A program made the translations under genes and the position numbers. From Roseobacter sp. (GTDB lineage: Bacteria; Pseudomonadota; Alphaproteobacteria; Rhodobacterales; Rhodobacteraceae): a stretch of DNA of 47,597 nt. This document shows, in pieces, positions 11,346 to 29,082 of the stretch. The stretch lies in the NCBI GenBank assembly GCA_015665415.1, contig JADFAE010000031.1:1-47597 (forward strand), given 5' to 3'. How positions within the stretch are numbered: position 1 is the first letter of the stretch; each line of letters begins with the position of its first letter. Under the pieces are notes generated by a model. It did no database searches. It was not told where the DNA came from and was given only the letters and a program-made list of their open reading frames with translations.

Positions 11346-12149
11346 CTATGGCCTTGCCACCTCGTTTTGGTGATCAAAAAACCAGATCGCAGCCTCGGTG
11401 CGGTTATGGACTCCAAGTTTGACCATCAGATGATGCATGTGAAGCTTGATGGTATGCTGTGAAAGTCGCAATTCCTCAGCAATGATCTTGTTGGGTTTGC
11501 CTTCCGCGGCGAATTTGAGAACCTGGATCTCACGCTGGGTCAGTCGAATACGTGTGCCATCGTCCCGCTCCGGATCAGGGGGAACTGTATCCTGCGCCTT
11601 TGGCACAGGTTCCGTTGTATCAGATGCGGTTGTCGCTCCTGTATCGGCGGAGCTGGGCGTGGTTGCGCCTTGCGGCTCTTGCAGCCGTTGCACCATCAGC
11701 TCTGACGGAACATAGTGTTCACCGCAGATCAACAGCCGCAAAACCGAGAGCCAGCGGTCTACTTCCAAATGCATTGGCAGCAGGCTGATCTGGCGCAGGT
11801 CCGGATTTTGGTTGGCCCATTCGATAATATGGTTTGCATTCTGTGGCTGCCGATAGGCCAAGGCGAACTGCGTATTTGGAAAGGCTATGTGCAGCTCGGC
11901 AACGCTGGCGCAGAACTCGGTAATCATCGCCTCATCAACAAGTATGTTGCGCACAAGGGCGCGTTGTTCATCGCTGGCGGTCTCCACCAAGCTGGTCAAA
12001 TCAGAAAAACTTTCAAGGCGGATGAACTGCACGCAGTCCATTTCGCCATTGGAGATTTTTAGGATGGTATCAGAAAAACACAATGGGCCTCCGACCAGGA
12101 TGCCGTTAATTATCTTGGGTTCTTGATTCAACATATTTGCAATATTCAT
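11346..12149 (-). CDS. LuxR-family regulator, CsgD-like layout
   Basis: Transcription regulator of 267 residues. The N-terminal part (about 1-180) looks like a degenerate receiver-type alpha/beta domain without a clear phospho-Asp pocket. A Thr/Pro-rich linker (about 185-205) leads to a canonical LuxR/FixJ helix-turn-helix at the C-terminus (Leu-Thr-x-Arg-Glu-x-x-Val-Leu ... Leu-Ser-x-x-Thr-Ile-Lys). CsgD, which switches on curli, has this layout. I use the ATG with an AGAGG ribosome site; a TTG 78 bp upstream is in frame. The gene is divergent, across a long control region, from the Asn/Gly-rich secreted-protein gene, so control of that operon is the natural inference. Confidence 0.75.
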   Translation of the reverse strand: MNIANMLNQEPKIINGILVGGPLCFSDTILKISNGEMDCVQFIRLESFSDLTSLVETASDEQRALVRNILVDEAMITEFCASVAELHIAFPNTQFALAYRQPQNANHIIEWANQNPDLRQISLLPMHLEVDRWLSVLRLLICGEHYVPSELMVQRLQEPQGATTPSSADTGATTASDTTEPVPKAQDTVPPDPERDDGTRIRLTQREIQVLKFAAEGKPNKIIAEELRLSQHTIKLHMHHLMVKLGVHNRTEAAIWFFDHQNEVARP

Positions 12150-12937
12150 TTTGATTAGCCTCTCTTCCCCGCTGGAGAGTCTGCATGTCGTTGGAACGAC
12201 GACATGGCCTAGAAACTGGATTTTCAAAATGCCGACTATTAATGCCGGTTCTGGGCACTGCTTCGATCAGTTTGCCTCAGCCTTAATGTTGGGTTCCTCT
12301 CAGACCCGGATGCCCTTGTTGTCGTGGAAAATACCTGTCGACAAGCTGAGTTGAAGTGAAGGCAATAGGAACGGCTAAAATTTTTAGCACAACTTTTGAT
12401 TAAAGTCTACCTAACACATCGGGCTACTTCCCCCAGGCGAGATCTATATCGCGGCTTAGGTCTATTCAGAATGAGCGATGATTCTGGAGATTTGATCACA
12501 GTTTTGTTGGCGGTGAGGGTGAAAGTTACGTTATTTCAATGTGTTGAAATGAGCCTTTCTGACTAGTCCCTTTCTCCATCTTAACGAAACTCGCCCGTTT
12601 GGTGACACTTCTTGGGTTACCCAGTGACCCGAATTAATGACGGCTGGAAAAGAAATCATTTAACGGGGAGAGATTTCTCCTTGGCGACTCAGGCTCCAAA
12701 CCTGTCCGAATTTTCAGCCAGCAGATCAGAACAAGAATGAAATTATTAAAGGGGGGGACGCGAACGGGAAATTGAATTTCTGGCGCAGAGAAGGCGCCGA
12801 TAGGGGGCTCGGTTCGATCTGCTCAACCGGTATCTCTGATCAAAGAACTCAACCTCAAAAATGAAATATAACATCTTCGCGTTGATCGCTTTTTATAGAG
12901 TCGCGGTCCCGTAGATGAATTTTACGGAGTATTGAAA
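12150..12937. promoter_or_regulatory. Long divergent control region of the matrix-protein operon
   Basis: Nearly 800 bp without a convincing gene, AT-richer than its surroundings, between the LuxR-type gene and the Asn/Gly-rich protein gene. It holds the palindrome at 12374-12388 and several A/T tracts. Such length is typical of highly integrated biofilm promoters. I cannot fix a single -35/-10 pair with confidence. Confidence 0.5.
12374..12388. promoter_or_regulatory. Perfect 15-bp palindrome
   Basis: GCTAAAA (12374-12380), a central T, then TTTTAGC (12382-12388). Perfect dyad of a size suited to a dimeric helix-turn-helix protein, in the divergent region next to the LuxR-type gene. Binding by that regulator is only a suggestion. 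Confidence 0.35.
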
Positions 12938-14653
12938 ATGCCTAGTAGACCAAATAATTTCTGGTTCCCTCACAATAACGGCAACCAAGATCAGGAACAG
13001 GACCAAGACCAGCTGCAGGCGCAGGCTCAGGCAGAGCTACAGGCCCAGCTACAGGGCCAGGCTCAGGCGCAGCATAGCGAAAATGACAACGACAATGACA
13101 ATGGCAACCATAATGGGAACGGCAACGGGAACCTGAATGGTAATGGCAACCTGAACGGCAATGGCAATGGCAACCTCAATGGCAACGGAAACGGCAATGC
13201 CAATGGGAATGGCAATGCCAACCTGAATGCCAACGCCAGCCTGAACGCCAATGGCAACCTGAATGGCAACCTGAACGGCAACCACAATTCAAACAGCTCA
13301 GACACCACAGTAGATGTGGCCGTCGACCTGACGGGATGGGAGCCAACGGATGACGATTTTGCAGATATCGATCTGGAAAACTCGACTGCCGGTGATTTCA
13401 TCATGGCCAAGGGCAACATGAACTACAGCCCCGGCGATGACATGAACCTCGAAGACATCCTGAACGATGCTCTGAACGGCAAAGGCAACGATTCAGCTGC
13501 AGTCATTGCGCAGAACAATAACCTGACCGACAACGACACGGCTCAGGGCATCAGCAATGATGGCAAAATGAAGCAGATGAACAAGTCGAAAGGTGGCGAT
13601 GCTGAATCTGGTGATGGCATTGATACCGACGCAGAGGGTGGCGACGGCGAAGGATCCGCAGAAACCGATGGCGGGACCGCGCTTGGCGGCCTGAGCGTTG
13701 GTGGTTTTGCGGCCTCTGATGGTGGTGAAAGCGGCGATGGCGGCAATGCCAAAGCTGGCGGTGGCTCTGGTGCCAGCGGTGGCGGTGCAACAGCTGTTGG
13801 TGTTGGACTTGGCCTGGGTGGCGCGTCTTCGGATGCCTCGTCCACAGGTGGTGACGGTGGCGACGCTGGTTCAGCGGCCGGTGCGCTGGGCGTTGGTGCC
13901 GGGCTGTCCGGTGCGGGCGCTTCCGGTGGTGACTCCGGCGATGCCGGTGGTGCCGGTGTAGGCCTTGGCGCAGCCGGTGCTGGTGCTGACAGCAGCAATG
14001 ACGGCAATGCCGGTGCAATCGCCGGTGGCCTTGGGTTCATTCCTGTTGGTGTTGCTGGTGCAAACAATGGCGAAACCGGTGATGCGGATGCTGGCGCAAT
14101 CGGCGCGGGCCTTGGCAATGGTGAAGGCACAAGCGGTGACGGCGGCGACGCCGGAGCGATCTCGGGTGCCGCTGGTCTTGGTGGCGCAAGCGCTGATTCC
14201 GGTAAGGCCATTGCTGGTGACGGTGGACATTCCGGCGCAGCGTCGGGTGCTATGAACAGCACAGCTGGATACGGCGGCATCAATCTTGCCGGCGGCGGTG
14301 ACGGCGGTGACGGCTACGGCGGTCACTCCTGGGGTGGTGACACTGGCAATGCCTATGGCGGTCATGCCTGGGGTGGCCACTCTGGTGCCACCGGCGGCTA
14401 CGCAGGTGGTAGCGGCGACGCCTTTGCAGGCGGCGGCGGTGACGGCGGAAATGCCGGCATGTGGGGGTCGAACAACGGTGACGACGGCTATGTCTCCGGA
14501 GAGTCCTTTGCATCTGCTGCGTCGCAGATCGACACCACGGCCTTTAACCAAAGCGTCGTGATGGGTGCCAACGTGCTGGGCAACAATGTCGACATGACCG
14601 TTGTTGGCGGCTCGTTCAGCTCCAACTACATCGGTGACGATGCCGATAGCTAA
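12938..14653 (+). CDS. Gln/Asn/Gly-rich low-complexity secreted protein (putative matrix protein)
   Basis: Unrecognised protein of 571 residues with extreme composition. In order: a Gln/Ala block (about 19-46), an Asn-Gly block with long runs of alternating Asn-Gly, Asn-Leu and Asn-Ala (about 48-118), a less repetitive acidic segment (about 120-220) holding the motif Val189-Ile-Ala-Gln-x-Asn-x-Leu-x-Asp-Asn-Asp, a Gly/Ala/Asp/Ser block of degenerate repeats of about 22-27 residues (about 215-525), and a Gly-poor tail ending in Gly-Asp-Asp-Ala-Asp-Ser. Cysteine is absent and there is no Sec signal, which fits type I secretion. The start ATG has an ACGGAG site; a TTG just upstream is also in frame. 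A strong terminator follows. The exporter genes lie downstream, so it is a likely substrate and perhaps a fibre- or gel-forming matrix protein. Confidence 0.75.
   Translation: MPSRPNNFWFPHNNGNQDQEQDQDQLQAQAQAELQAQLQGQAQAQHSENDNDNDNGNHNGNGNGNLNGNGNLNGNGNGNLNGNGNGNANGNGNANLNANASLNANGNLNGNLNGNHNSNSSDTTVDVAVDLTGWEPTDDDFADIDLENSTAGDFIMAKGNMNYSPGDDMNLEDILNDALNGKGNDSAAVIAQNNNLTDNDTAQGISNDGKMKQMNKSKGGDAESGDGIDTDAEGGDGEGSAETDGGTALGGLSVGGFAASDGGESGDGGNAKAGGGSGASGGGATAVGVGLGLGGASSDASSTGGDGGDAGSAAGALGVGAGLSGAGASGGDSGDAGGAGVGLGAAGAGADSSNDGNAGAIAGGLGFIPVGVAGANNGETGDADAGAIGAGLGNGEGTSGDGGDAGAISGAAGLGGASADSGKAIAGDGGHSGAASGAMNSTAGYGGINLAGGGDGGDGYGGHSWGGDTGNAYGGHAWGGHSGATGGYAGGSGDAFAGGGGDGGNAGMWGSNNGDDGYVSGESFASAASQIDTTAFNQSVVMGANVLGNNVDMTVVGGSFSSNYIGDDADS
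13081..13290 (+). repeat. Degenerate 6-bp tandem repeat coding Asn-Gly
   Basis: About 35 near-tandem hexamers of the type AAYGGC/AACGGS, with interspersed AACCTG, encode the alternating Asn-Gly, Asn-Leu and Asn-Ala block. Such DNA is prone to slippage and in-frame length change between strains. Confidence 0.85.
13700..14470 (+). repeat. Degenerate Gly/Asp/Ala-coding repeat block
   Basis: GGTGGTGACGG-like units encode about ten imperfect protein repeats of 22-27 residues with the outline Gly-Asp-x-Gly-Asp-Ala-Gly-Ala ... Gly-Leu-Gly. The repeats diverge at the DNA level, so they are old rather than freshly amplified. Confidence 0.75.
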
Positions 14654-14669
14654 GCCTATCTGAAACACC

Positions 14670-14707
14670 GCCTGAGCCCGGAGAAATCCGGGCTCAGGCC
14701 TTGTTTT
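14670..14707 (+). terminator. Strong intrinsic terminator after the Asn/Gly-rich gene
   Basis: A perfect 13-bp GC-rich stem, 14670-14682 pairing with 14687-14699, closed by a GAAA tetraloop and followed by CTTGTTTT. It ends the low-complexity gene and separates it from the repeat protein and exporter genes in the same direction. This allows a highly expressed substrate with lower exporter expression by readthrough or a second promoter. Confidence 0.9.
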
Positions 14708-14805
14708 CGAAAAGTTCTTTTCCGACCGACCGCAGGGTTTTCATGCGGCAAAAAAATAGTGTTTTTAACGAGGTGAGCAGCCACTCGATTTAAAGCGAGG
14801 CTGTG

Positions 14806-16863
14806 ATGTTGATGGACAAAACGACCGAAATGGTCGCCCACATGATTGGTATATTTCATACCTCCGTGGAAGAAATTCGTTTGCGCGAGGTCTATGACAA
14901 ATTCAAGGCGCTGAAAGCCGAAGCCTTGGACAACGGCAAGATCGACGCGATTGCGGTCTCTTTCAAGGCGGGCTATCGGCTTGAGGGGTTTGCCCCGGGT
15001 ATCAAGTACAAGCCCCCGTATCTGGAGGAGGGGACGTCCAGTCCCATCAATCCACTCCACACGGCATCTGGCATCTTTGTTCCAGGCATTTCCGTGGGAT
15101 CCTTGGATTTTCAGGTGCCGCAGTTTTTTGCATCCCTCTACTGGGGCGGCGGCAGTGGCAAGCCGACCCTGGAACCGCCCGCCAGCGTGGTTGTCGTCAC
15201 CTTCCAGAGCAATTTTCTATATGATGATGATTTGCTTCTGCAGGGGGACGGCACCACCGTTTTTATCGATCCAACTGAGCTGCTTGAACAGTTGCAACAC
15301 TATCAGACCGTGGCCACGGCGATCGCCGCGCCTGCGGATGCCGAGATCCTTGTTCCGGGCGAGACCGCCGGGGCGGATGCCATCGTGCTGCACAACAAGA
15401 TCGGTTTGGTCGAGGCCAGCACCCTCACCGGGGTGGCCGCCTCCGTCCTGCATGGTGCCGAGGCGCTGGGGCTGCATCTCAATGGCGAGGTGGTTGAAGA
15501 GCTCGACAGCCTGGAAGATGTCATGCCCGCCTATCACGCCAGCAAAGCCGAGGGCGGTGAAGGCAGCAGTGGCGCGGATGCCTCTGAGGAGGGGGCCGAA
15601 GGTGAAAGTGGCGCAGAGGAACATGACTGGCCTGATCCCTTTGAAGGGCTCGACAATGATGGGGCTACCGGTGATGACTTCCACATCGAGGCCGGGCATC
15701 ACATCGTGACCGGCGGCAATACCATGGTCAATGAGGTGGCGATCAACTCTGCCTGGCTGGATGCGCCGATGATTGCGGTCATGGGCGATGTGGTGAACCT
15801 CGAGGTGATCGCGCAGGTCAATGTGCTGGTGAACCACGACAGTGGCATGACCGGCGGGCCTGCTGCCTCTGCAGTGCTGAATGGCGCGGGCATGACCTTC
15901 ACCAGCTCTTCCCCAGAAGAGGATGAGAGCGAAGAGACCGCAGCTGAACCCGCAGGCGGCGGGCTACCATCGAACTGGGTGGTGACCCGAATTGATGGCG
16001 ATGTGGTGAGCTTTAACCACGTCAATCAATATAACTTCCAGACAGACCATGATCGCGCCGAAGTCTGTTTCCACAGCTCCAACACCTATATTGCCATGGG
16101 CGACAACAGTTTGGTCAATGTGGCCAATCTGGGGGAGCTCGGCTTTGGCTATGATCTGATCTTTATCGGCGGTGACATGATTTCGGTCAATTGGATCAGT
16201 CAGATCAATGTGTTGATTGACAATGATACGGTGACCTATTCCGGCCTGTCACCCAGTGTCGCAAGCGGGGATGACAACCTGCTTTACAACAGCGCCCATA
16301 TCTCCGGCTCCGGATTGGACAGCCATGACGAGATGTCGACCGGCATGAAAGGTATTTCCAAAGCTCTGGGCGAGGGCGACGAGGGGTTCAAGAGTGATCC
16401 CGGCTACGCCCCGGTGTTTGAGGGGCTGGATGTTCTGCGGGTGCTCTACGTTGAGGGTGACCTGACCACGGTCAACTGGATCAAACAGACCAATATCCTG
16501 GGCGATTCCGATCAGGTGCATCTGGCAATGGACAATCTCGAAAAAGAGAGTGGTGCCGAGGTCACCGTCACGGCGGGCTCCAACGCGGTGGTGAACCTGG
16601 CGTCGATCAATGAATACGGCGTCGATTCAGAGGTGGCCGTTGGTGGCGAGGTCTACGATGACGCGCTGCTGTATCAGGCAGAGCTGATCGACACTGATGC
16701 GGATCCTCTGGGGGTCGATCTTTCGGGTCTTGCCTCTGAGGCGGTGGCCTTTTTGGCGGAAGACATGCTGTCGCCAGAGATCGGCACGGAGCAAGAGGCG
16801 ATCCTGCCAACAGCACCAGAAGACACATCATCATCAGACGTGATGCAAACAATGCTTGCCTAA
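14806..16863 (+). CDS. Large repeat protein, probable type I secretion substrate
   Basis: Protein of 685 residues with no Sec signal, no cysteine-rich domain, and acidic composition. The N-terminal 200 residues form a globular-looking part rich in Pro and aromatic residues. An acidic Ser/Gly/Glu linker lies at about 245-275. From about 300 to 625 there are four to five repeats with the core Gly-Gly-Asp-x(4)-Asn-x-Ile-x-Gln-x-Asn-Val-Leu-x-Asp-x-Asp; the core Gln residues are Gln337, Gln408, Gln466 and Gln561. The last 60 residues are acidic and end in Met-Leu-Ala. The repeats suggest stacked beta strands. Starts at GTG 14803, ATG 14806 and ATG 14812 are possible; GCGAGG precedes them. The ABC transporter follows 16 bp after the stop. 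Role inferred: secreted matrix or adhesin protein, or adaptor for secretion of the upstream protein. Confidence 0.75.
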   Translation: MLMDKTTEMVAHMIGIFHTSVEEIRLREVYDKFKALKAEALDNGKIDAIAVSFKAGYRLEGFAPGIKYKPPYLEEGTSSPINPLHTASGIFVPGISVGSLDFQVPQFFASLYWGGGSGKPTLEPPASVVVVTFQSNFLYDDDLLLQGDGTTVFIDPTELLEQLQHYQTVATAIAAPADAEILVPGETAGADAIVLHNKIGLVEASTLTGVAASVLHGAEALGLHLNGEVVEELDSLEDVMPAYHASKAEGGEGSSGADASEEGAEGESGAEEHDWPDPFEGLDNDGATGDDFHIEAGHHIVTGGNTMVNEVAINSAWLDAPMIAVMGDVVNLEVIAQVNVLVNHDSGMTGGPAASAVLNGAGMTFTSSSPEEDESEETAAEPAGGGLPSNWVVTRIDGDVVSFNHVNQYNFQTDHDRAEVCFHSSNTYIAMGDNSLVNVANLGELGFGYDLIFIGGDMISVNWISQINVLIDNDTVTYSGLSPSVASGDDNLLYNSAHISGSGLDSHDEMSTGMKGISKALGEGDEGFKSDPGYAPVFEGLDVLRVLYVEGDLTTVNWIKQTNILGDSDQVHLAMDNLEKESGAEVTVTAGSNAVVNLASINEYGVDSEVAVGGEVYDDALLYQAELIDTDADPLGVDLSGLASEAVAFLAEDMLSPEIGTEQEAILPTAPEDTSSSDVMQTMLA

Positions 16864-16879
16864 CGGGATAGTGAATTTC

Positions 16880-18991
16880 ATGAATTTGATTAACACGACG
16901 AGTACGACCGAAGAGGATGCCTTTTCACAAGGTGAAGCAGTCAAGTCACGCCAGAATCAAGGCGACAGGCCAACGGGTGAACCTCTGCCCACGCTCAAAT
17001 TGCAACCCGAACAGCGGGTTGACAGACAACAGCCAGTCCCGGACCAACCGGCCCGGCAAGAGCCCCTGAGCAAAACCCAGCGCGAAACCCAGCGCACCAC
17101 AGAACGTAGGTCCACCACTCCCCTGCCGGGGCATCAGGTTGAAGGCGATACCGGCCCGATCCTGAGATCCGGTAGCGGTGGCAAGCCCCCGGTTTCGACC
17201 GGGGGCAACAGGGGCGGCGGTGGTGGCGGAGGTGGTGCCCCGCCCGAGTTCCACAAACGGGCCAATCCGGACCAATTTGTTGAACAGCTGGCCAAGGGGC
17301 TGCGTGTTGTCCGCGGCAATCTGGGCTTTGTCATGGTGCTGACCTGTGCCACCAACATGCTGGTGCTGGCGATCCCGATCTATCTGTTTCAGATTTCCGA
17401 CCGGGTGCTGACCAGCCGCTCGATTGATACCCTGATCATGTTGACGGTGATCATCGTGGCCGCCGTTGTGCTACAGGCGATCTTTGACGCCGTGCGCCGC
17501 TTTATTCTGATGCGGACCGCCGTCGAGGTTGCCGTGCGCCTGGGCGCTCCGGTGTTGAGCGCAGCCGCGCATGCCTCCTTGCAGGACAATGGGCGACAAT
17601 ATCAGACATTGGGGGATCTGCAGCAGCTGCGTGGGTTCCTGACCTCCAGCACCTTGATTTCCTTTCTGGACGTGCCCTTTGCACCGCTGTTCATCTTTGC
17701 CATTTTCCTGGTTCATCCGCATCTGGGGATGATTGTTGTGGTGACGGCCTGTGTGTTGATGGTGGTGGCCCTGATCAACCAAAAGGCCACCGCCAAACCC
17801 TTTGCCAAGGCCAACCAAGCGCAGAGCCGTGCCAATATGCATCTGGATTCGATGTCGCGGAACAGCCAGATCATCAACGCGCTGGCCATGGTGCCCGAAG
17901 CTGTGGCGCTCTGGGGGCGCGATACCGCCCATTCTCTGCAGGCGCAGGTTCAAGCGCAGGATCGCAATATCTTCTGGGCAGCAGTCTCACGGGCCGCACG
18001 TCTGTTGACCCAAATCGCCATGTTGGGCTGGGGGGCTTATCTCGCCATTCAGGGCGAAATCACCGGCGGCATGGTGATTGCGGCCTCGATCATCGCGGGG
18101 CGGGCGCTGGGCCCGATCGAAGGCTCGATCGAAGGCTGGAACGGGTTCCTGCTGTCGCGCTCGGCTTATGATCGGGTGCGCAGCCTGATGCATAAATCGG
18201 TGCAGCGTTTTGAAAAACTACGCCTGCCCAATCCCGAAGGCCGCTTGAACGTCGAGCGGCTGCTCTATGTACCTGCGGGCACCAAACAGGTGATCCTGAA
18301 CGGGTTGTCCTTTTCCCTGACACCTGGCGAGTCCCTGGCGGTGATCGGCAATTCCGGCGCCGGCAAGACCACCCTGGGCAAGATGCTGGTGGGCTCGATC
18401 CTGCCGACCTCTGGCAATGTGCGGCTGGATCTGATGGATCTGCGCAATTGGGACACGCGACAGCTGGGCGAGAACATCGGCTATCTGCCGCAGGACGTGC
18501 AGCTGTTCCCGGGGTCGATCAAGGACAATATCGCCCGCATGCGCAGCGATGCCCGCGACGAGGACATTCACCGGGCCGCATTGCTGGCTGATGTACATGA
18601 CATGATCGCGATGCTGCCCCATGGCTACGAGACCATGGTGCAGGCGGATGGCTCGCCGCTGTCGGGCGGACAGAAACAGCGGATCGCTTTGGCGCGGGCC
18701 TTCTTTGGCAATCCGCGCTTTCTGGTGCTGGATGAGCCGAATTCGAACCTGGACACCGCTGGGGACCGCGCCCTGGCCAATGCCATCCGCCATGCCTCCG
18801 AGAACGGGATCACCACGGTGGTGATCACTCAGAAGCCTTCGCTGCTGAGCGTGGTGGACAAGATCATGCTGCTGGCCGACGGCAATATCGCCATGTTCGG
18901 CTATCGCCAGCAGGTGCTGCAGCAATTGGCGCAACGCAGTCAGACCGGGGGCAATCTGCCTCCGGCGCAGTCCCAACCCGGAGGTCAGTGA
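16880..18991 (+). CDS. Type I secretion ABC transporter (PrtD/AprD type)
   Basis: Inner-membrane exporter ATPase of 703 residues. The first about 130 residues are an unusual Pro/Gln/Arg-rich, probably disordered extension with a run of eight glycines, not the C39 peptidase domain. Then come six membrane helices and a nucleotide-binding domain: Walker A with Lys496 (Gly-Asn-Ser-Gly-Ala-Gly-Lys-Thr-Thr), Q-loop Tyr-Leu-Pro-Gln-Asp, signature Leu-Ser-Gly-Gly-Gln, and Walker B Leu-Val-Leu-Asp-Glu-Pro. The switch histidine after Walker B is replaced by Gln651 (Val-Ile-Thr-Gln-Lys-Pro). TTG 16856 and GTG 16871 are alternative starts. It forms the exporter with the next gene; the outer-membrane TolC partner is not in the window. 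Confidence 0.92.
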   Translation: MNLINTTSTTEEDAFSQGEAVKSRQNQGDRPTGEPLPTLKLQPEQRVDRQQPVPDQPARQEPLSKTQRETQRTTERRSTTPLPGHQVEGDTGPILRSGSGGKPPVSTGGNRGGGGGGGGAPPEFHKRANPDQFVEQLAKGLRVVRGNLGFVMVLTCATNMLVLAIPIYLFQISDRVLTSRSIDTLIMLTVIIVAAVVLQAIFDAVRRFILMRTAVEVAVRLGAPVLSAAAHASLQDNGRQYQTLGDLQQLRGFLTSSTLISFLDVPFAPLFIFAIFLVHPHLGMIVVVTACVLMVVALINQKATAKPFAKANQAQSRANMHLDSMSRNSQIINALAMVPEAVALWGRDTAHSLQAQVQAQDRNIFWAAVSRAARLLTQIAMLGWGAYLAIQGEITGGMVIAASIIAGRALGPIEGSIEGWNGFLLSRSAYDRVRSLMHKSVQRFEKLRLPNPEGRLNVERLLYVPAGTKQVILNGLSFSLTPGESLAVIGNSGAGKTTLGKMLVGSILPTSGNVRLDLMDLRNWDTRQLGENIGYLPQDVQLFPGSIKDNIARMRSDARDEDIHRAALLADVHDMIAMLPHGYETMVQADGSPLSGGQKQRIALARAFFGNPRFLVLDEPNSNLDTAGDRALANAIRHASENGITTVVITQKPSLLSVVDKIMLLADGNIAMFGYRQQVLQQLAQRSQTGGNLPPAQSQPGGQ

Positions 18992-18992
18992 T

Positions 18993-20771: not shown

Positions 20772-20795
20772 ACGACTACGGCGCGCCCTTTTTGG

Positions 20796-20918: not shown

Positions 20919-21971
20919 ATGAATTCTGTTACCAAGTTCACACGTTTAAGGACTGCCAAAAATCCGAACAATCATTCGGTGGATTTTTTTGAAAATAGAA
21001 AAAGCGTTTTGATAGCTGGCGGAGCCGGATTTCTGGGCTCCCGACTGTGTGGACGATACCTTGAATTTGGATGCCGTGTGACCTGTTTGGACAATCTGTC
21101 GACGGGCCGGCTGAGCAATGTGAGAGATTTTCTGGAAGATCCAAATTTCTCCTTCATTCTCCACGATGTTATCGATCCAATCAAAAGTGATAGCGCTTTT
21201 GATTATATCTTCAATATGGCCTGTCCGGCCTCTCCTCCAAAGTATCAGTCGGACCCTATCCAGACGATGAAGACCAACCTTTATGGGGCCTTCAACCTTC
21301 TGGATTTGGCACGGCGTAGCAAAGCGCGGATCCTGCAGGCCTCTACATCCGAGGTCTATGGTGACCCGGATATCAGCCCGCAGCAGGAACGCTATCAGGG
21401 CAACGTCAATACGGTGGGGCCGCGTTCTTGTTACGACGAGGGCAAACGGGCCGCCGAGACAATATTTCATGAGCACCGTGAATGCCTTGGCGTCGATCTG
21501 CGTATCGCGCGGATCTTCAATGCCTATGGGCCGGGGATGGATCCCGAAGACGGAAGGGTGGTCTCCAATTTCATCAACCAGGCTCTGGCCGGAGCGCCGA
21601 TCACCATCTACGGCGATGGGTCACAAACCAGATCCTTTTGTTATCTCGAAGATATGGTGGATGGGCTCATCGCCTTGATGCACAGCCCGGCGACCACATT
21701 TGAACCCATCAATATCGGCAACCCGGATGAATTCACCGTCGCAGAGCTGGCGGCGCTGGTGCTGGAGAAAATTCCATCGAAGTCGGAGATCGTCCATGTC
21801 GACCTGCCGGCTGATGACCCCAAACAACGCCGCCCGGATATTGGCCGGGCCCAGCGGCATCTTGGCTGGTCTCCGAAGGTGGATCTTAGCCAGGGGCTGG
21901 ATCGCACGATTGCCTATTTCCGGGCCGAAGCAGAGGGACGGAGCTGCCGGATCCCGTCGGTGGCGCAATGA
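20919..21971 (+). CDS. UDP-glucuronate decarboxylase (UDP-xylose synthase)
   Basis: Extended SDR enzyme of 350 residues that converts UDP-glucuronate to UDP-xylose with bound NAD. Seen: Gly-Gly-Ala-Gly-Phe-Leu-Gly nucleotide motif near residue 35, the family-typical Ala-Cys-Pro-Ala-Ser-Pro-Pro-x-Tyr-Gln segment, Thr-Ser-Glu-Val-Tyr-Gly, the catalytic Tyr-x-x-x-Lys as Tyr-Asp-Glu-Gly-Lys, and Arg-Ile-Phe-Asn-Ala-Tyr-Gly-Pro. An N-terminal tail of about 28 residues precedes the fold. First gene of the sugar operon; overlaps galE by ATGA. It suggests a pentose in the polymer. Confidence 0.85.
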   Translation: MNSVTKFTRLRTAKNPNNHSVDFFENRKSVLIAGGAGFLGSRLCGRYLEFGCRVTCLDNLSTGRLSNVRDFLEDPNFSFILHDVIDPIKSDSAFDYIFNMACPASPPKYQSDPIQTMKTNLYGAFNLLDLARRSKARILQASTSEVYGDPDISPQQERYQGNVNTVGPRSCYDEGKRAAETIFHEHRECLGVDLRIARIFNAYGPGMDPEDGRVVSNFINQALAGAPITIYGDGSQTRSFCYLEDMVDGLIALMHSPATTFEPINIGNPDEFTVAELAALVLEKIPSKSEIVHVDLPADDPKQRRPDIGRAQRHLGWSPKVDLSQGLDRTIAYFRAEAEGRSCRIPSVAQ

Positions 21972-22966
21972 GAGGGCCCAGGGTCCTTGTGACCGGGGGG
22001 GCTGGCTTTATTGGCAGCCACGCCTGCTTGCAGCTGTCCGAGGCGGGGTATCAGCCCATTGTTGTGGACAATTTGCGCACGGGCCATGCGGATGCGGTGA
22101 AATGGGGGCCTTTTGTGGCGCTGGACATTCGCAACAGCACCGCCCTGGCAGAGGTGATGCAGCAACACAATATCGAACTGGTGATGCATTTTGCGGCGGC
22201 AGCCTATGTTGGCGAGTCGGTGACGCATCCCGGCCTCTATTATGACAACAACGTCGGTGGCATGATCGCTTTGCTGGCCGCAATGCAGCAGGCCGGGGTC
22301 AAGGATCTGGTGTTTTCTTCCAGCTGCGCCACCTATGGCAGCCCTCAGCAACAGCCGATAACAGAAGACACCCCACAGCAGCCGATCAATCCCTATGGCC
22401 GCAGCAAACTGATCTGCGAAGAGATGATCCGCGACCAGGCCGCAGCACATGGGCTGCGTTTTGTGATGCTGCGCTATTTTAATGCCTGCGGGGCCGATCC
22501 GCAGGGACGGCTGAGCGAGCGTCACGATCCCGAAACCCATCTTATTCCGCTGGCGCTGATGGCGGCCGCCGGGCAACGTCCGCCGCTGTCTGTATTTGGT
22601 ACCGATTACGACACCCCCGACGGCACCTGTGTGCGGGACTATATCCATGTTGGCGATCTGGCACGGGCGCATGTTCTGGCGGCGAAATCACTGGCGCAGG
22701 GCGGGCGGAATCTGGCGCTCAACCTTGGCACCGGCACCGGCCATTCCATTCTGGAGATCATTGCAGGTATCGAAGTTGTAACCGGCTGCAGCACGCCCTG
22801 GCATGCCGCGCCGCGCCGCGCCGGTGATCCGGCGATGCTGGTGGCAGATACCAGGGCCGCCGGGCGGTTGTTGAATTTTGCAGCTCGTCATTCCGGGCTG
22901 CTGACAATCCTGCGGGATGCGGCACCGCATTTTGGCTTGGAGGTGCAAAATGACCTTTGCGCCTGA
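21968..22966 (+). CDS. galE: UDP-glucose 4-epimerase
   Basis: SDR epimerase of 332 residues interconverting UDP-glucose and UDP-galactose. Seen: Gly-Gly-Ala-Gly-Phe-Ile-Gly-Ser-His near residue 9, Ser-Ser-Cys-Ala-Thr-Tyr-Gly, catalytic Tyr-Gly-Arg-Ser-Lys, Arg-Tyr-Phe-Asn-Ala-Cys-Gly-Ala, and Asp-Gly-Thr-Cys-Val-Arg-Asp-Tyr-Ile. Length agrees with GalE. Overlaps the gene before by ATGA and the synthase gene after by 17 bp. It supplies precursor to the adjacent synthase. Confidence 0.92.
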   Translation: MRGPRVLVTGGAGFIGSHACLQLSEAGYQPIVVDNLRTGHADAVKWGPFVALDIRNSTALAEVMQQHNIELVMHFAAAAYVGESVTHPGLYYDNNVGGMIALLAAMQQAGVKDLVFSSSCATYGSPQQQPITEDTPQQPINPYGRSKLICEEMIRDQAAAHGLRFVMLRYFNACGADPQGRLSERHDPETHLIPLALMAAAGQRPPLSVFGTDYDTPDGTCVRDYIHVGDLARAHVLAAKSLAQGGRNLALNLGTGTGHSILEIIAGIEVVTGCSTPWHAAPRRAGDPAMLVADTRAAGRLLNFAARHSGLLTILRDAAPHFGLEVQNDLCA

Positions 22967-24797
22967 CATGCACAGGGGGCCACAGGCGCGCCGCACAGGG
23001 CTCAAGCCGGTGTTTTCCGGGCGGATCAAGCGCAGATACAATCTCATCATCTTGATCTGGTTGGTGGCGGCGCTGTGGTTTTGGGCCTGGTGGCTCAAAC
23101 CGGAGCACAACAGCACAGGGCTGCAATATTGGATCGCCACCCTCGGGTTGAGCTGGTTGTTTTTCCTGCAGGTATTCTTTGTTGTGGTGTTTCGCCGCGC
23201 CGTGATCCCCGCTGCTGCTCCGCCGGATCCCACCACCACCCGTGTGGCGATGATTGTCACCAAAACCCCGTCAGAACCCTTTTCGGTGCTCAAGGTCACG
23301 CTTGAGGCGATGCTGAACCAAAGCTATCCCCATGACACCTGGTTGGCGGATGAGAACCCCAGTGCCGAGACCATAGCCTGGTGCCGTCGCCACGGAGTCT
23401 TGCTGTCCACACGCCATGAGCAATCTGAATATCATCGCCAGGAATGGCCCCGTCGCACCCGCTGCAAGGAAGGCAATCTAGCCTATTTCTATGACAATTA
23501 CGGCTATGATCGCTATGATTTTGTCTCGCAGATGGATGCGGATCACGTGCCCAACCCGACCTACCTGCAAGAGGTGATGCGCGGATTTGTCGACCCTGAT
23601 GTCGGCTATGTCAGTGCCCCCAGCATCTGTGCGCGCAACGCCAAGGACAGCTGGGTTGCCCGCACCAGATTGCACACCGAAGCGGCCTTTCACGGGATTT
23701 TCCAGGCGGGCTATTCCGGTACCATGGCACCGATGTGCATCGGCTCGCATTACGCCGTGCGCACCCAGGCGCTGCAACAGGTGGGGGGGCTGGGCCCAGA
23801 GCTGGCCGAAGACCATTCCACCACGATGATTTTAAACGCCGGGGGGTGGCGCGGGGTCCATGCGCTGAACGCAATTGCCGAGGGTGATGGCCCCGCCAAT
23901 ATCTCTGACCTGTGCACCCAGGAATTCCAGTGGTCGCGCAGCCTGCTAACGATCTTTTTGCGGTTCACATCCGGCTATTTTGGCCAGTTGCCCATTCGGC
24001 TCAAGTTCCTGTTTCTGTTCTGCCAGCTGTTTTACCCCTGTTTTGCCTTTTTCATGGCGCTGCTTTACGCCTTGCCGGTGTTGGCGCTGCTGTTTGATTT
24101 CCGCTACGCCGAGGTGACCTATCCGGCCTTTGTGATGCATGCGGCGCCGCAGGTGCTGGCGCTGACAGTGATCGCCTATCATCTCAAGGCTGACGGGCTG
24201 TTTCGCCCCTTTGATGGCACTGTGATATCCTGGGAAAAGACGCTGTTTCTGGGGCTGCAATGGCCCTGGGTGCTGTTTGGCTGCGTGATGGCGATCTGGG
24301 ATCGGATCTTTGGCGGCTTTGTCGATTTTCGCATCACCCCCAAGGGTGAGGCGGCAGAGGCAACACTGCCGATGCCGGTGGTGCTGGTCTACACAGTTTT
24401 GGCCCTGGGCTGTCTGCTGCCGGTTTTATTGGTGGGAAACGTGCGGGATGCACATGGTTTCTATCTTTTGAGCGCAATAAATGGTATATATTACACGGTG
24501 ATTGTTGCCGTGATCGTGTTTCAGCATTTTCGCAAAGTGCCAGTCTCCAGAGGCAGATCATTCATTGCCGATCTGACCAAGATTTCATTGCCGTCATTCT
24601 TGGTCTGCCTCGCCGGGGTCACCGTCCATGAGCGGGGCCTTGAAAGTCTCTATGCCCTCTCGAAGGGACTCGAACCCTTCAGATTGATCCGAGAGCAATA
24701 TGCCGTCGCGGGAGCGGGCATGGGCGGGCCGGGGACCGTCATTCTGACTTACGATCCGGGCTGGAAACGGGCCGGTGCGGGCTACCCAAAGGAGTAG
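22950..24797 (+). CDS. Membrane GT2 polysaccharide synthase
   Basis: Processive family-2 glycosyltransferase of 615 residues. Two N-terminal membrane helices (about 30-75), a cytosolic catalytic domain, and about five C-terminal helices. Catalytic landmarks: Asp196-Ala-Asp198-His (nucleotide-sugar and metal binding), Ala-Glu-Asp288-His (general-base region), and Gln324-Glu-Phe-Gln327-Trp328 in place of the usual Gln-x-x-Arg-Trp acceptor motif. There is no PilZ domain, so direct c-di-GMP control of the BcsA type is not expected. Start at 22950 has a GGAGGTGC ribosome site; the frame extends upstream without one. The product is unknown; a beta-glucan or mannan-like backbone is possible given the GH26- and GH128-like neighbours. 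Confidence 0.88.
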   Translation: MTFAPDMHRGPQARRTGLKPVFSGRIKRRYNLIILIWLVAALWFWAWWLKPEHNSTGLQYWIATLGLSWLFFLQVFFVVVFRRAVIPAAAPPDPTTTRVAMIVTKTPSEPFSVLKVTLEAMLNQSYPHDTWLADENPSAETIAWCRRHGVLLSTRHEQSEYHRQEWPRRTRCKEGNLAYFYDNYGYDRYDFVSQMDADHVPNPTYLQEVMRGFVDPDVGYVSAPSICARNAKDSWVARTRLHTEAAFHGIFQAGYSGTMAPMCIGSHYAVRTQALQQVGGLGPELAEDHSTTMILNAGGWRGVHALNAIAEGDGPANISDLCTQEFQWSRSLLTIFLRFTSGYFGQLPIRLKFLFLFCQLFYPCFAFFMALLYALPVLALLFDFRYAEVTYPAFVMHAAPQVLALTVIAYHLKADGLFRPFDGTVISWEKTLFLGLQWPWVLFGCVMAIWDRIFGGFVDFRITPKGEAAEATLPMPVVLVYTVLALGCLLPVLLVGNVRDAHGFYLLSAINGIYYTVIVAVIVFQHFRKVPVSRGRSFIADLTKISLPSFLVCLAGVTVHERGLESLYALSKGLEPFRLIREQYAVAGAGMGGPGTVILTYDPGWKRAGAGYPKE

Positions 24798-24802
24798 GGA
24801 AA

Positions 24803-25732
24803 ATGAAGCGATATCTTATCAAGGACTGCCGCAAACTGCTGCAGCGGATCGCCATCTTCCCAGTCATCGCAGGCTGGGCAACGGCATCCCTGGCTGCGCC
24901 TCCGGGCGATCTGCCCTTTGGGGTCTATGATCCCAATGGCGGATTTTCGGACGACACGGATGTGCAGATCGAACATCTATTCCTGCCCTGGGAGGACGTC
25001 TTTCTGCCCTCCTTGGCGGATGCGGATGCCTATGCCGTCGAGCGCGGGCGGTCGGTGCTGGTCACCATCGAGCCCTGGACCTGGACACAGGATGAACGCA
25101 ACACCCCGGAGATCCTGATCGCGGGTATTGCCAGCGGCGCCTATGACGAAAACATGCGTGCCATTTGCGGCGCATTGGCTGAATTCGAAAGTCCGGTGAC
25201 CATCCGCTGGGCGCAGGAGATGGAGGATGCCTCGGGGCAGTTCATCTGGGCTGACTGGGTTCCGGAAACCTATGTGGCCGCCTATCAGCAAGTGGTCGAT
25301 GTCTGCCGCGAAGTGAGCGATAAATTCGACTATATGTGGTCGCCGCTGGGCTATGAAGACCTGGCAGAGTATTTCCCCGGCAAGGATTATGCCGATGTGA
25401 TCGGCTTGTCGGTCTTTGGCTTGCAGGCCTGGGAACTCGAGGTGCTGGGCCGGGAGCAGAGTTTCCGCGACATCTTTGAGCCGCGCTATCAGCGGGCGCT
25501 GCAGTTCGATCTGCCGATTGCGGTGGCCGAGTTGGGGTTTGTCGGTACCGACGACTACGTCGAGAAATGGAACAATGAAGTGCGCCAGGTACTGGAAGAA
25601 TTCTCTGAATTGCAGGCGGTGGTCTATTTCAATCAGCAAGAGGTGCACCCCTGGCCGGATGACTTTGGCCTGCCAGATTGGCGTTTTCCACAAAATGCAT
25701 TGGGTGAACGCGCGGCGGCTCTGAATCGCTAA
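24803..25732 (+). CDS. Exported GH26-like glycoside hydrolase
   Basis: Protein of 309 residues with a long N-terminal signal peptide (cleavage near Ser-Leu-Ala-Ala, about residue 32). The fold resembles GH26 beta-mannanase/beta-glucanase TIM barrels. Probable acid/base is Glu139 in Arg-Trp-Ala-Gln-Glu-Met, and nucleophile is Glu243 in Val-Ala-Glu-Leu-Gly-Phe. It starts 6 bp after the synthase, with a GGAGTAGGG site, so it belongs to the same operon and probably trims or releases the nascent chain, as BcsZ or AlgL do in other systems. A terminator follows. Confidence 0.75.
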   Translation: MKRYLIKDCRKLLQRIAIFPVIAGWATASLAAPPGDLPFGVYDPNGGFSDDTDVQIEHLFLPWEDVFLPSLADADAYAVERGRSVLVTIEPWTWTQDERNTPEILIAGIASGAYDENMRAICGALAEFESPVTIRWAQEMEDASGQFIWADWVPETYVAAYQQVVDVCREVSDKFDYMWSPLGYEDLAEYFPGKDYADVIGLSVFGLQAWELEVLGREQSFRDIFEPRYQRALQFDLPIAVAELGFVGTDDYVEKWNNEVRQVLEEFSELQAVVYFNQQEVHPWPDDFGLPDWRFPQNALGERAAALNR

Positions 25733-25775
25733 CACGTGAATTGTCAGATCTACCGCCCCAACATGGGGCCTCAAG

Positions 25776-25808: not shown

Positions 25809-26120
25809 ATGGACAACTAGCCGGGGTGGCGGATTGTCGCTTGAGCGTTTTGTCCGGGAGAGCGACGCCTTCCTATTCCCTAGGATGGCTTGTTCCGCAA
25901 GGAGTTAGCTTTCAAGATAGGACATAAGCCCGGACCCAAAGGTCCAGAAATGGCCTGTTTCTTGTCTAAAGCAGACCTTCATTAACGGTAGAGTCATTCC
26001 TGCTGAGGTAAAGTTTTTGTCACCGGGGCGGGGATTTGGTATGTCTCTCATCACCAAAGGAACCGAGGCTGGTACAAACCTAACCCGGTGAATGTAGGGC
26101 AATACAGGCAGGAGACAGTG
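25809..26120. other. Intergenic stretch before the small secreted protein
   Basis: About 310 bp with no supported gene. The only features seen are A/T-rich patches around 25980-26030 that may hold a promoter; no clear -35/-10 pair could be fixed. Confidence 0.4.
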
Positions 26121-26396
26121 ATGTTCTTCCAATCTACCCGCGTGCTTGGCGCGGCGACTATCACGTGCGTGATGGCATTCGCTCCCTTGGGGGCGGCGGC
26201 AGATTCACGGAGCACTGAAACTCCCAACAGCAAGCCTGCGCAAACGCTGCGTTTGGCCAGTGGCGGGCTCAATCTGTTGACTGCGCCGAAAACGCGCCGC
26301 TCATCGGCGAACCGCAAGCGTGTTGCGGTGGGCAACGGCAGTTACATCTGCTCGCCCGCAGGGTTTGGGCAGCCGTCGCGCTGCTATTCCAACTGA
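26121..26396 (+). CDS. Small secreted protein with a C-terminal Cys-pair motif
   Basis: Protein of 91 residues. A Sec signal peptide (about 1-27, ending Gly-Ala-Ala-Ala-Asp) is followed by a basic, Ser/Thr-rich mature part. The C-terminus is Tyr-Ile-Cys-Ser-Pro-Ala-Gly-Phe-Gly-Gln-Pro-Ser-Arg-Cys-Tyr-Ser-Asn, with two cysteines that likely form a disulfide. I have seen similar Ile-Cys-Ser-Pro-Ala-Gly-Phe-Gly ends on small alphaproteobacterial exported proteins, but no function is known to me. The start has an AGGAGACAGTG ribosome site; 33 bp upstream another ATG has none. Confidence 0.75.
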   Translation: MFFQSTRVLGAATITCVMAFAPLGAAADSRSTETPNSKPAQTLRLASGGLNLLTAPKTRRSSANRKRVAVGNGSYICSPAGFGQPSRCYSN

Positions 26397-26586: not shown

Positions 26587-27504
26587 ATGTTAAAACTATT
26601 CATGTTTTTACTGGGGTTTACGGCTATGTCCCAGATCGCAGAGGCACAACGCGCAGGCGTTGGGGCCTGGGAAAACCCGGATTACACGATGCTGCGTTGG
26701 ATCGAAAAGCAGCCCGGACTGAGCTGGTATTACAACTGGCGCAGTGATCAGATCGCGACCAAGAGTCCGCAGCGACGCGCGGCAGAATTTGTGCCGATGA
26801 TCCATAGTGCGCGCAATATTAACGACAGGATCCAAAGCAGCCAAAATCCACGCGCGCTGTTGGGATTCAACGAACCAGACGGCAATGGCGGTGATCATCA
26901 GGCGGGGATGACGGTGGCACAGGCGGTGGCGCTTTGGCCCCAGCTTGAGGCCCGCGGGCTCCGGCTCGGCAGTCCGGCCACCACTCGAGAAGGCACGCTG
27001 GGTCATAATTCCTGGCAACGTCGCTTCATGAATGAAGTGGCCAGGCGCGGATTGCGCGTCGATTTCATGGCCGTTCACTACTATTCCAAGACCGGCGATG
27101 TGGCAGAGTTTCGCAACTGGTTGATCCAGGTGCATCAGGAATACCGCAAACCAATCTGGGTGACCGAGTTTGCGCTGATCGACTGGAGCCGACCCGGGAG
27201 CGCCAGCTACAGGGCCAACGCCAAATTTGCCAAAGCTGCAATCGAGATGATGCAGGGATTGTCCTTTGTTGAGCGCCACGCCTGGTTTGCAGCCAATCCC
27301 TATCCCTGGCCGGGGGGGGCACCTTCGATCAATCTGGTCGATAATCAACTGCGTGAAACCCCTGTTGGACAGGCCTTTCGACAGGCTCTGGCAGGGTCGA
27401 CGCCAGGACGCCTGGCCTTGTTGCAGACCGAAGAGGCTGCGGGCGCAGGTGCAAATACCGAAATCAGGCGCAGCTCAAATCTGACGATCGCCGATCGTCG
27501 GTAA
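26587..27504 (+). CDS. Exported GH128-like glycoside hydrolase
   Basis: Protein of 305 residues with a signal peptide (about 1-20, ending Ala-Glu-Ala-Gln). It matches the glycosyl hydrolase catalytic core family of the GH128 type, whose known members cleave beta-1,3-glucan. Acid/base Glu96 lies in Leu-Gly-Phe-Asn-Glu-Pro-Asp and nucleophile Glu194 in Trp-Val-Thr-Glu-Phe-Ala; the active-site His-Tyr-Tyr after Phe-Met-Ala-Val is also present. Start has a TTGAGGT site. Placed between the small secreted protein and the Sel1 protein, it likely modifies the polymer made by the GT2 synthase, which hints at a beta-glucan. Confidence 0.8.
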   Translation: MLKLFMFLLGFTAMSQIAEAQRAGVGAWENPDYTMLRWIEKQPGLSWYYNWRSDQIATKSPQRRAAEFVPMIHSARNINDRIQSSQNPRALLGFNEPDGNGGDHQAGMTVAQAVALWPQLEARGLRLGSPATTREGTLGHNSWQRRFMNEVARRGLRVDFMAVHYYSKTGDVAEFRNWLIQVHQEYRKPIWVTEFALIDWSRPGSASYRANAKFAKAAIEMMQGLSFVERHAWFAANPYPWPGGAPSINLVDNQLRETPVGQAFRQALAGSTPGRLALLQTEEAAGAGANTEIRRSSNLTIADRR

Positions 27505-27681
27505 GGTGGGGGAAACCCGCGTAAGGTGCTGCCGGTATAAGGCGGCATCTACGGGTTGTAATATGACTTGAAAATGTAGACAAAACAAAGTTTTGCATGC
27601 AGAATGAGGTGAGGCAGAAACCTATCACGACTTCTTGGATTCCCCGTTCCAGCGGGACCCTATTTTGGAGGACTGATAGAT

Positions 27682-29082
27682 ATGCGTTTTGTAACGATTT
27701 TTGCTTTTTCCCTACTCGGCACCACTTCCCTTTCTTTGCTCTCATTATCCCCTGCGCATGCGCTTGGTGGCGACAATGATACTGTTCGCGCGGTGACAGC
27801 TGACAGCGTTGGCGCAGACCCGACGCCTGAGGCGGCGGCAGCAGGGCTGGTCGCCTTGGAGCAGGCGGCTGCCAGCGGTGACGCTGGGGCCAAAGCGACG
27901 CTGGGCCGCATCCTTTTGGAAGGGATCTTTCAGCAGGCTGACCCGGATCGTGGCGAGGCTCTGCTCTTGGAAGCTGCTGAGGCGGATCACCCCAAGGCAA
28001 TGATTTCATTGGCGAATGCCTATCTTTGGGGGCTATATGGTCGGCCCATCGACGCCGAGAAATCCCGTGCTCTGTTTGAGCAAGCCATAGCCTTCGGAGA
28101 CCCAGAGGCGCTCAGGCTGTATGGGGACCAATTGGTGCGCGGCACTGAGTTTGACAGGGATACAACCCGTGGCATCGAGATGCTGGAGAGGGCGGTGGAG
28201 TTGGGCGCGCCCAAGGCTCAGATCACGCTGGGAAGTCTTTATCTAGACGGCATTCACTTGCGCCGCGATGAGGCCCGGGCGAAGGTTCTGTTCGAGGCCG
28301 CCGCCAGAGCCGGAGACGGGGAGGGCCTAGAGCTGCTTGGGGCCGATATCATGTGGAACCGGCGAGGCAGTCAGCGGGCTGAAAAATACCTGCTGCGCGC
28401 TGCGGATCTGGGACGTGGATCGGCCTGGACCACGTTGGCCAAAGGGGCGATGTATGGCTATTTAGGCAAGCGTTCCCGGTCCAAGTTCCTGGGCTATGCC
28501 CATAATGCCCGTGAGGCGGGGCAAAGCGAAGTTGCGGTTCTGGACGCACATCGCGCCCTTTGGGGGATCAGTATGCGGGCCAGTGGCCCCAAGGCCATTC
28601 GTGGATTGGAAGAGGCTGTCGCGCAGGACAATGAGGCCGCTCTGAAGTTCCTGATCAGTCTTGTGCGTGATGGCAACCGCTGGAATGTGCGCCGGAATTC
28701 GAGGATGGCGCAGACCTATTTGGCGGAGCATTCAGACCTGCTGAGCGCCGCCGAGATCGCCCAGTACGAGCTGTCATTCGACGTGGCGAAGACAAAAAAT
28801 GTCAAACAGTTTGGTGCACTTGCTGAACGATATGCCGAAACGCCGGGGGCAAAATCCGCTTGGTTCGGCCAGGAGCTTTATGCCGCGAACCCGAATTTTG
28901 CCATGTATCTGCTGCAGGCCCGGATGAAGGACGCGGGCAACTATGGGGGTGCGCTCAACGGTATGGCCACCAAGGCCACGCTCAAGTCGATCTGGCGGGA
29001 GTGTCGGGAGCTCGGCTATTCGCGCAACTGTGGCGACTCGGTTCTGGAGCCCAGCATCGTCGGCGCGTTGCTTGCCCGGTGA
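27682..29082 (+). CDS. Exported Sel1-repeat (TPR-like) protein
   Basis: Protein of 466 residues with a signal peptide (cleavage near Ala-His-Ala, about residue 30) and no lipobox cysteine. At least five Sel1-type helical repeats are visible between about 50 and 270, with the Leu-Gly-x-x-Tyr/Leu-x-x-Gly and Ala-x-x-x-Gly-x-x-x-Ala pattern. Two further Cys near the C-terminus could form a disulfide. Periplasmic Sel1/TPR scaffolds such as AlgK in alginate export are standard parts of synthase-dependent polysaccharide systems. Its place at the end of this locus suggests such a role here, though Sel1 proteins have many functions. GGAGG precedes the start. Confidence 0.75.
   Translation: MRFVTIFAFSLLGTTSLSLLSLSPAHALGGDNDTVRAVTADSVGADPTPEAAAAGLVALEQAAASGDAGAKATLGRILLEGIFQQADPDRGEALLLEAAEADHPKAMISLANAYLWGLYGRPIDAEKSRALFEQAIAFGDPEALRLYGDQLVRGTEFDRDTTRGIEMLERAVELGAPKAQITLGSLYLDGIHLRRDEARAKVLFEAAARAGDGEGLELLGADIMWNRRGSQRAEKYLLRAADLGRGSAWTTLAKGAMYGYLGKRSRSKFLGYAHNAREAGQSEVAVLDAHRALWGISMRASGPKAIRGLEEAVAQDNEAALKFLISLVRDGNRWNVRRNSRMAQTYLAEHSDLLSAAEIAQYELSFDVAKTKNVKQFGALAERYAETPGAKSAWFGQELYAANPNFAMYLLQARMKDAGNYGGALNGMATKATLKSIWRECRELGYSRNCGDSVLEPSIVGALLAR

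Follow-up and report, generated by a model that had tools for sequence, protein, structure and literature searches.

The locus described here lies in a stretch of 47,597 nt of Roseobacter sp. (contig JADFAE010000031.1 of assembly GCA_015665415.1, forward strand), hereafter called the window, and combines genes for two candidate exported proteins and their type I exporter with genes for a polysaccharide synthase. It had been predicted from the sequence alone to be one undescribed biofilm-matrix island. Listing of open reading frames, translation and family searches confirmed that all genes named in that prediction are present, about where they had been placed; a gene for a 166 amino acid (aa) protein and an RNA hairpin had been overlooked. 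The features are the following:

10843-11343, minus strand: 166-aa protein (w09) of unassigned family, adjoining the LuxR gene in the same direction, with a conserved R-N-x-Y-x-H motif
11346-12227, minus strand: LuxR/NarL-type transcription regulator (Pfam GerE, 8.2e-20), divergent from the candidate exported-protein genes
12863-12927, plus strand: leader RNA hairpin, supported by covariation and by an outer-stem swap control
12932-14653, plus strand: open reading frame (likely ATG at 12938) of a Gly/Ala/Asn/Asp-rich protein of 571 aa without Cys, here called the Gly/Asn-rich protein, a candidate exported matrix protein
14803-16863, plus strand: P3, the second candidate exported protein (686 aa from a GTG, 685 from the next ATG)
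16856-18991, plus strand: type I secretion ABC permease/ATPase of the PrtD subfamily (TIGR01842, 701.5 bits, cutoff 510.15)
18993-20333, plus strand: type I secretion adaptor of the HlyD family (TIGR01843, 371.5 bits, cutoff 208.65)
20919-21971, plus strand: Uxs1 homolog of the UDP-xylose synthase (UDP-glucuronate decarboxylase) family, 59% identical to gene 1 of a Sinorhizobium meliloti operon
21968-22966, plus strand: Uxe/GalE homolog, a UDP-sugar 4-epimerase, 60% identical to the gene in the uxe position (GalE model 397.4 bits, cutoff 262.3)
22917-24797, plus strand: ApsS homolog, a membrane polysaccharide synthase of glycosyltransferase family 2 (GT2), 53% identical to the gene in the apsS position
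24803-25732, plus strand: ApsE homolog, a hydrolase like glycoside hydrolase family 26 (GH26), 45% identical to the S. meliloti operon hydrolase, with a signal-peptide-like start
26088-26396, plus strand: small secreted-looking accessory protein with a C-terminal Cys pair; similar short stretches follow GH26 in several of the related polysaccharide loci
26587-27504, plus strand: accessory GH128-type hydrolase (Pfam Glyco_hydro_cc, 5.2e-47) with a signal-peptide-like start
27682-29082, plus strand: accessory secreted-looking protein with Sel1 repeats (Pfam Sel1)

The locus consists of two conserved modules rather than of a single undescribed system. Module A (10843-20333) contains the genes of the 166-aa protein, the LuxR regulator, the Gly/Asn-rich protein, P3, PrtD and HlyD, and module B (20919-25732) those of Uxs, GalE, GT2 and GH26, with accessory genes onward to 29082. 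In 20 fetched stretches that were read with the window proteins, module A had the layout 166-aa gene and LuxR, then Gly/Asn-rich gene, P3, PrtD and HlyD; module B had the order Uxs, GalE, GT2 and GH26, often followed by Cys-pair, Sel1 or GH128 genes. That the listed open reading frames are genuine genes is shown by their conservation in other genomes. Pfam and NCBIfam support the assignments of LuxR, PrtD, HlyD, the epimerases, GT2, GH26, Glyco_hydro_cc and Sel1. The Gly/Asn-rich, P3 and Cys-pair proteins matched no Pfam family at E 0.01, and an NCBIfam scan of the first two found no family either. We consider it moderately probable that the locus encodes two cooperating surface-matrix modules, in which a protein pair exported by a type I system and controlled by an RNA at its first gene is allied to a polysaccharide of a type known from rhizobia.

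In its sequences as well as its gene order, module B is a homolog of the operon for an arabinose-containing polysaccharide (APS) of Sinorhizobium. On a plasmid of S. meliloti RCAM1115 the homologous genes are annotated as SDR (short-chain dehydrogenase/reductase), galE, glycosyltransferase, DUF995, beta-mannosidase and DUF995; the aps gene names were put on them from the gene order given in excerpts of PMC7902896. The window proteins match genes 1, 2, 3 and 5 (uxs1, uxe, apsS and apsE) with 45-60% identity. The order uxs1-uxe-apsS is present and contiguous in the window, and the ApsE-type hydrolase adjoins the synthase, its 45% identity extending over 282 aligned positions. The view that the whole locus lacks a description and any named relative is thus not supported, on account of the polysaccharide half. 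Tblastn gave no convincing match to apsH1 or apsH2 (DUF995) anywhere in the window (best E 0.64), for which reason we call this half APS-like and not the APS operon itself; unlike that operon, it has GH128, Sel1 and Cys-pair proteins in their stead. Excerpts of the APS literature (PMC7902896, PMC9495663, PMC9938287, PMC8546604) describe APS as a cryptic polysaccharide of Sinorhizobium that was found at elevated cyclic di-GMP, with production increasing with cyclic di-GMP via CuxR, and describe Uxe as a bifunctional epimerase. Since the window epimerase is 60% identical to the uxe-position protein and Uxe is bifunctional, supply of UDP-arabinose is as possible as the supply of UDP-galactose that had been proposed. 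Among the window genes scanned there was no Pfam match to an AraC-family (CuxR-type) activator, which could sit elsewhere in the genome, whereas a LuxR gene is nearby.

The GT2 protein scored 65.4 bits against the CelA model, below its cutoff of 699.1, and showed no match to a PilZ domain, so that a cellulose synthase of the BcsA type was rejected. In all nine other GT2-bearing genomes among 146 related ones (see below) the GH26 gene follows that of GT2; L053 is cut at a contig end. The GH26 match in Pfam is weak (22.8 bits, cutoff 20.2), and the closest PDB chains are a beta-1,3-xylanase and a GH26 protein named 'endoglucanase H', with E about 1e-6. The GH128-type protein matches Glyco_hydro_cc structures in the PDB, which we take to be GH128. 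A Sel1 gene is found near the APS genes in loci L054, L057, L058, L060, L065 and L075. Separately, at 1826-9031 of locus L063, a Sulfitobacter faviae plasmid, a DUF995 gene, a large glycosyltransferase and a DUF3131 protein lie 1.4-8.7 kb from the hlyD gene of a module A cassette; this stretch is possibly a further polysaccharide locus.

The novelty of the locus sits in module A and its RNA leader. Within the literature searched and Rfam, no name was found for this widespread cassette, nor a description of it with its RNA hairpin. A profile scan for P3 in a collection of genomes of 84,980 species, made via a single conserved pattern, gave 175 relatives, of which the best 80 were kept and are used for all counts 'of 80' below. 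Record titles show that the cassette spans Rhodobacterales and Rhizobiales and that it is also plasmid-borne (32 records). PrtD and HlyD follow P3 in all 80 loci. The conserved C-terminus of the Gly/Asn-rich protein occurs in 78, both misses being loci that start at a contig end, and a protein of this type was found in each of 12 loci that were read out, although in L064 the frame breaks before the C-terminus. Its length in these 12 loci varies from 505 to 1047 aa. In L105 (6511-9873) there are two successive copies of the gene, with a hairpin at the start of each; in the window's own genome, a search for further copies of the C-terminus found the window copy alone.

The two proteins are related by a sequence motif. 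P3 of the window has five QxN-type motifs, four of which match the strict pattern QxNxLx[DN]xD, so that of the two repeat proteins in the original prediction P3 is borne out as one. One strict copy is found in the Gly/Asn-rich protein and none in the other 24 window proteins tested. All 51 P3 rows carry the strict motif, with at least 2 and on average 3.1 copies where shuffled rows have 0.003; one copy per row is guaranteed, as the same motif served as the pattern in the genome scan. Of the Gly/Asn-rich rows, 36 of 83 carry it (0.005 on average per shuffle). That both candidate substrates carry it suggests that they may assemble together. Most P3 proteins, of which 19 and 49 sequences were aligned, also end in a conserved tail like DxMQTMLA or DxMQ[TS]xLA. 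The profile of 19 sequences had no match in the PDB, and these 19 members showed no common Pfam match, with one weak stray hit. Inspection by eye revealed no signal peptide in either protein. The linkage to the exporter in 80 of 80 loci points to the Gly/Asn-rich protein and P3 as candidate type I substrates.

Whether the two modules belong together was judged from their distribution. Of 146 related genomes, the window's own included, 11 encode P3, 10 GT2, 11 the GH26-like protein (with one weak, distant match) and five the GH128-like protein. P3 and GT2 were both present in six of these, and close together in the window's genome and G009 alone. A wider family sample comprised 394 genomes drawn evenly from 393 genera, even sampling being the sole correction for phylogeny. 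Here P3 and GT2 each occurred in 34 genomes and both in 13, as compared to 2.9 expected (Fisher p 3.8e-7, odds ratio 10), which supports the predicted association of the protein-export half with the polysaccharide half. The distance between P3 and GT2 is within 10 kb in three of these 13 (the window, G319 and G420); in G014 the two are far apart on one contig, and in the other nine they are on different contigs, several of these in fragmented assemblies.

The 80 loci give a similar picture. Uxs, GalE and GH26 were found within the flanks in 12 and GT2 in 11, the flank of L075 ending before GT2 is reached. Three gene orders can be distinguished. In the first, Uxs comes after HlyD as in the window (L074, L114 with a gap of 85 bases, and L075 with Sel1 between); in the second, LuxR, the 166-aa gene and Uxs are divergent from the exporter (L076, L077, L080-L083, L092 and L093); in the third, all genes have one direction (L087). 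Five Sulfitobacter plasmid records have P3 and GT2 about 6 kb apart, and the divergent order was seen in both of the records that were read. A tree built from 51 P3 rows places 12 of the 13 contiguous ones, the window counted, in a single clade of 21, and L114 stands apart behind strongly supported branches.

Several observations weigh against a close union of the modules. GT2 is absent from 21 of the 34 family genomes with P3. No APS genes were found in the flanks of the Rhizobiales loci read (up to 10-12 kb, several shorter), nor in flanks of 10-12 kb around seven Rhizobiales, Paracoccus and Cereibacter plasmid loci, and a limited dyad comparison found no DNA site common to the starts of both operons. 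A possible, if doubtful, explanation is thus that these are two unrelated surface modules which became neighbours via accessory replicons or islands, their contiguity reflecting hitchhiking and not a common function. This would fit the many P3 genomes without GT2, the small share of genomes with both in which the two are within 10 kb, the plasmid location of several copies, the single clade, which leaves room for few origins of contiguity, and the finding that the three order labels do not cluster beyond shuffles in the P3 tree. Hitchhiking is less easily reconciled with three gene orders in ten genera (by record title), with the position in the tree of L114, contiguous yet distant from the others, and with the tenfold odds ratio in the evenly drawn sample. 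In our view the repeated contiguity reflects an alliance between two modules that can also occur apart, the pairing being recurrent, not obligatory. The notion of one undescribed island was rejected, since GT2 is missing from most genomes with P3 and a named relative exists for the polysaccharide half. The original prediction had named independent occurrence of the halves in most genomes as evidence against itself, and to the letter this is what was found; its interpretation is, at the level of sequence comparison, partly supported.

A second feature of module A is the hairpin just upstream of the start codon of the Gly/Asn-rich gene. It was found by counting dyads before that gene, the first dyad lists, dominated by coding repeats, having led on to it. 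In the window the outer stem pairs CATCT (12872-12876) with AGATG (12913-12917) and the inner stem pairs 12884-12889 with 12903-12908. The leaders of 78 loci were listed: 38 entered one alignment (A3), 15, mostly from Rhizobiales, another (A5), and 25 were left out by eye, being near-copies, Sulfitobacter plasmid rows, leaders with no recognised hairpin or with a doubtful start codon; the model described below later matched nine of these 25 (L043, L063, L064, L101, L102, L103, L104, L108 and L148). In the 38 aligned leaders the six inner pairs are formed in 94.7% of cells, a percentage biased toward the hairpin by the choice by eye, so that more weight should go to the swap and slide controls. 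Every one of the six inner pairs shows double changes (shuffled alignments average 3.4 such pairs, and 5 of 500 reach six), and there are 33 double-changed cells as compared to 10.0 in shuffled alignments (0 of 500 as high) and at most 10 in slid controls. The outer stem varies in sequence and still pairs, with a mean score of 13.2 versus 8.97 with swapped flanks (standard deviation 0.49, maximum of 500 swaps 10.7).

When 72 sources were searched with a covariance model, 22 hits reached E 1 or better. All but one of them mark the start of a Gly/Asn-rich gene; these 21 comprise eleven seeds, the near-copy L043 and nine further hits, of which four are weak (E 0.02-0.35). Another 34 hits came from the window and the 28 loci left. 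Four of them are weak and lie elsewhere; the other 30 lie at the gene start, namely 26 seeds, the window, two near-copies (L101 and L103) and, in L105, the first copy; L106, omitted by the distance rule of the script, was counted at the gene start by its assigned start codon. Rfam 15 has no match up to E 10 in 12200-13100 of the window. The outer strand can also form an alternative helix, in the window between CCGTAGA (12909-12915, overlapping the outer stem) and TTTACGG (12921-12927), which covers part of the ribosome-binding site ACGGAG. Over the 38 leaders this helix scored 10.86 versus 9.18 with swapped partners (0 of 1000 as high). We suggest that the leader may act as a switch between the outer stem and the helix that masks the ribosome site. 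The seven hand-picked relatives that were folded (59 bases) have z scores of -1.70 to -4.75.

On the other side of the balance, the window leader itself (83 bases) folds little better than its shuffles (z -0.90), and its lowest-energy fold has the inner stem and the masking helix without the outer stem. With near-copies thinned to 27 leaders the masking helix is weak, scoring 9.46 versus 8.58 with 21 of 1000 swaps as high. Of the 62 sources with module A, 41 went unmatched by the covariance model, mostly ones from Rhizobiales and Paracoccus and in some cases truncated at the start of the gene, as did all ten sources that hold module B alone. Covariation in the Rhizobiales set, which is partly misaligned, was equalled in pairing by 49 of 500 shuffles. 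Finally, a scan for inverted repeats at free positions gave a mean of 7.46 versus 6.38 for shuffles, with just 2.8% of leaders above the 95th percentile of the shuffles; support for the hairpin came from the aligned tests.

LuxR-type regulators bind dyads, and the inverted repeat could accordingly be a DNA operator of the LuxR protein and not an RNA structure. Its location within a divergent intergenic region would suit an operator, and transcription might start downstream of the dyad. We nevertheless consider an operator unlikely in view of the compensated changes at all six inner pairs, the separate outer stem that differs in sequence yet pairs, the position just before the start codon, and the two gene copies in L105 that each have their own hairpin.

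The regulator and its neighbour are less uniform than the exporter genes. The 166-aa protein was found in 71 of 80 loci, the nine misses being contigs that start at most about 5.1 kb before P3, and LuxR, by similarity, in 61. As ten of the 19 loci without LuxR contain the 166-aa protein, LuxR is the less constant of the two. In most loci measured, the LuxR gene and the 166-aa gene abut or overlap; in L110, L111, L133 and L140 the latter sits after HlyD. The 166-aa protein gave no convincing match in Pfam or the PDB and none in PADLOC. Its motif R94-N95-x-Y97-x-H99 is conserved, H being invariant in 24 sequences and R missing in L144. The HEPN motif is R-x4-6-H, and the resemblance is one of motif alone, as no HEPN family or PDB structure was matched; that the 166-aa protein acts on the leader RNA is speculation. 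The regulator had been called CsgD-like, which holds for the DNA-binding domain and not for the rest: with 41.6 bits against the CsgD model (cutoff 250) a true CsgD was rejected, and PADLOC returned nothing for it beyond weak matches to the DNA-binding domain.

In the mechanism that we propose, the PrtD/HlyD pair of module A would export two proteins that lack signal peptides, and these probably co-assemble outside the cell, where the Gly/Asn-rich protein would form the bulk material and P3 would be a partner, anchor or nucleator. The leader hairpin may gate synthesis of the Gly/Asn-rich protein, its outer strand alternatively masking the ribosome-binding site, while the divergent LuxR regulator and the 166-aa protein may control the cassette. 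Module B would make an APS-like polysaccharide, based on xylose, arabinose or hexose, via the membrane GT2 synthase, and the GH26-like hydrolase would trim it; together the products may serve in biofilm. That P3 and the Gly/Asn-rich protein are instead a secreted enzyme, inhibitor or nutrient-binding pair, an idea left room by the lack of a recognised domain in either, is hardly likely, since structural material would better explain both the low-complexity body of widely varying length and the link to a polysaccharide operon, and P3 matched no anti-phage defence model in PADLOC.

If this reading of two cooperating matrix modules is right, the locus resembles curli plus cellulose under CsgD in that a candidate protein polymer, a GT2 polysaccharide and a LuxR-type regulator are encoded close together. 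CsgA and CsgB have a common motif, as do the two substrates here, and curli are exported via the Csg pore, whereas the window has a type I exporter in its place. Curlin itself was rejected, as neither the Gly/Asn-rich protein nor P3 has a Pfam match and none of the 19 P3 sequences matches curlin. The ABC protein and the adaptor both exceed their model cutoffs (701.5 and 371.5 bits), as expected of a type I system, and the exporter is comparable to rhizobial PrsDE and other PrtD-type systems in serving a surface protein, here a candidate. Rap adhesins are exported by PrsDE, according to excerpts of PMC9855851. The window exporter differs in that neither of the two candidate substrates linked to it matches a Pfam domain, and this holds for calcium-binding RTX repeats too.

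Elsewhere in the window, 1767-8484 encodes molybdenum hydroxylase subunits with an AAA ATPase and CoxE-like and XdhC-like proteins. Nuo51-type and molybdopterin oxidoreductase subunits, probably formate-dehydrogenase-like, are found beside a LysR gene at 33896-38541, and a trimethylamine methyltransferase (MTTB) family protein is followed by two proteins of the NADH:flavin-oxidoreductase type at 40775-47234.

A bolder form of our proposal is offered tentatively. The cassette could be a dedicated extracellular fibre system of alphaproteobacteria with no relation to curli; its type I exporter would secrete the bulk Gly/Asn-rich protein together with a partner sharing its motif. The bulk protein would be switched by a new class of translational leader RNA, with a two-tier hairpin opposed to a masking helix and perhaps read by the 166-aa protein, and in many Rhodobacterales the system would be joined to an APS-like polysaccharide as a two-component matrix. 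If our main reading is right, marine and root-associated alphaproteobacteria would possess a matrix system parallel to curli and cellulose, which would add a protein pair, a regulator partner of no assigned family and a structured RNA leader for study, and the link to APS would make the place of use of that polysaccharide testable.

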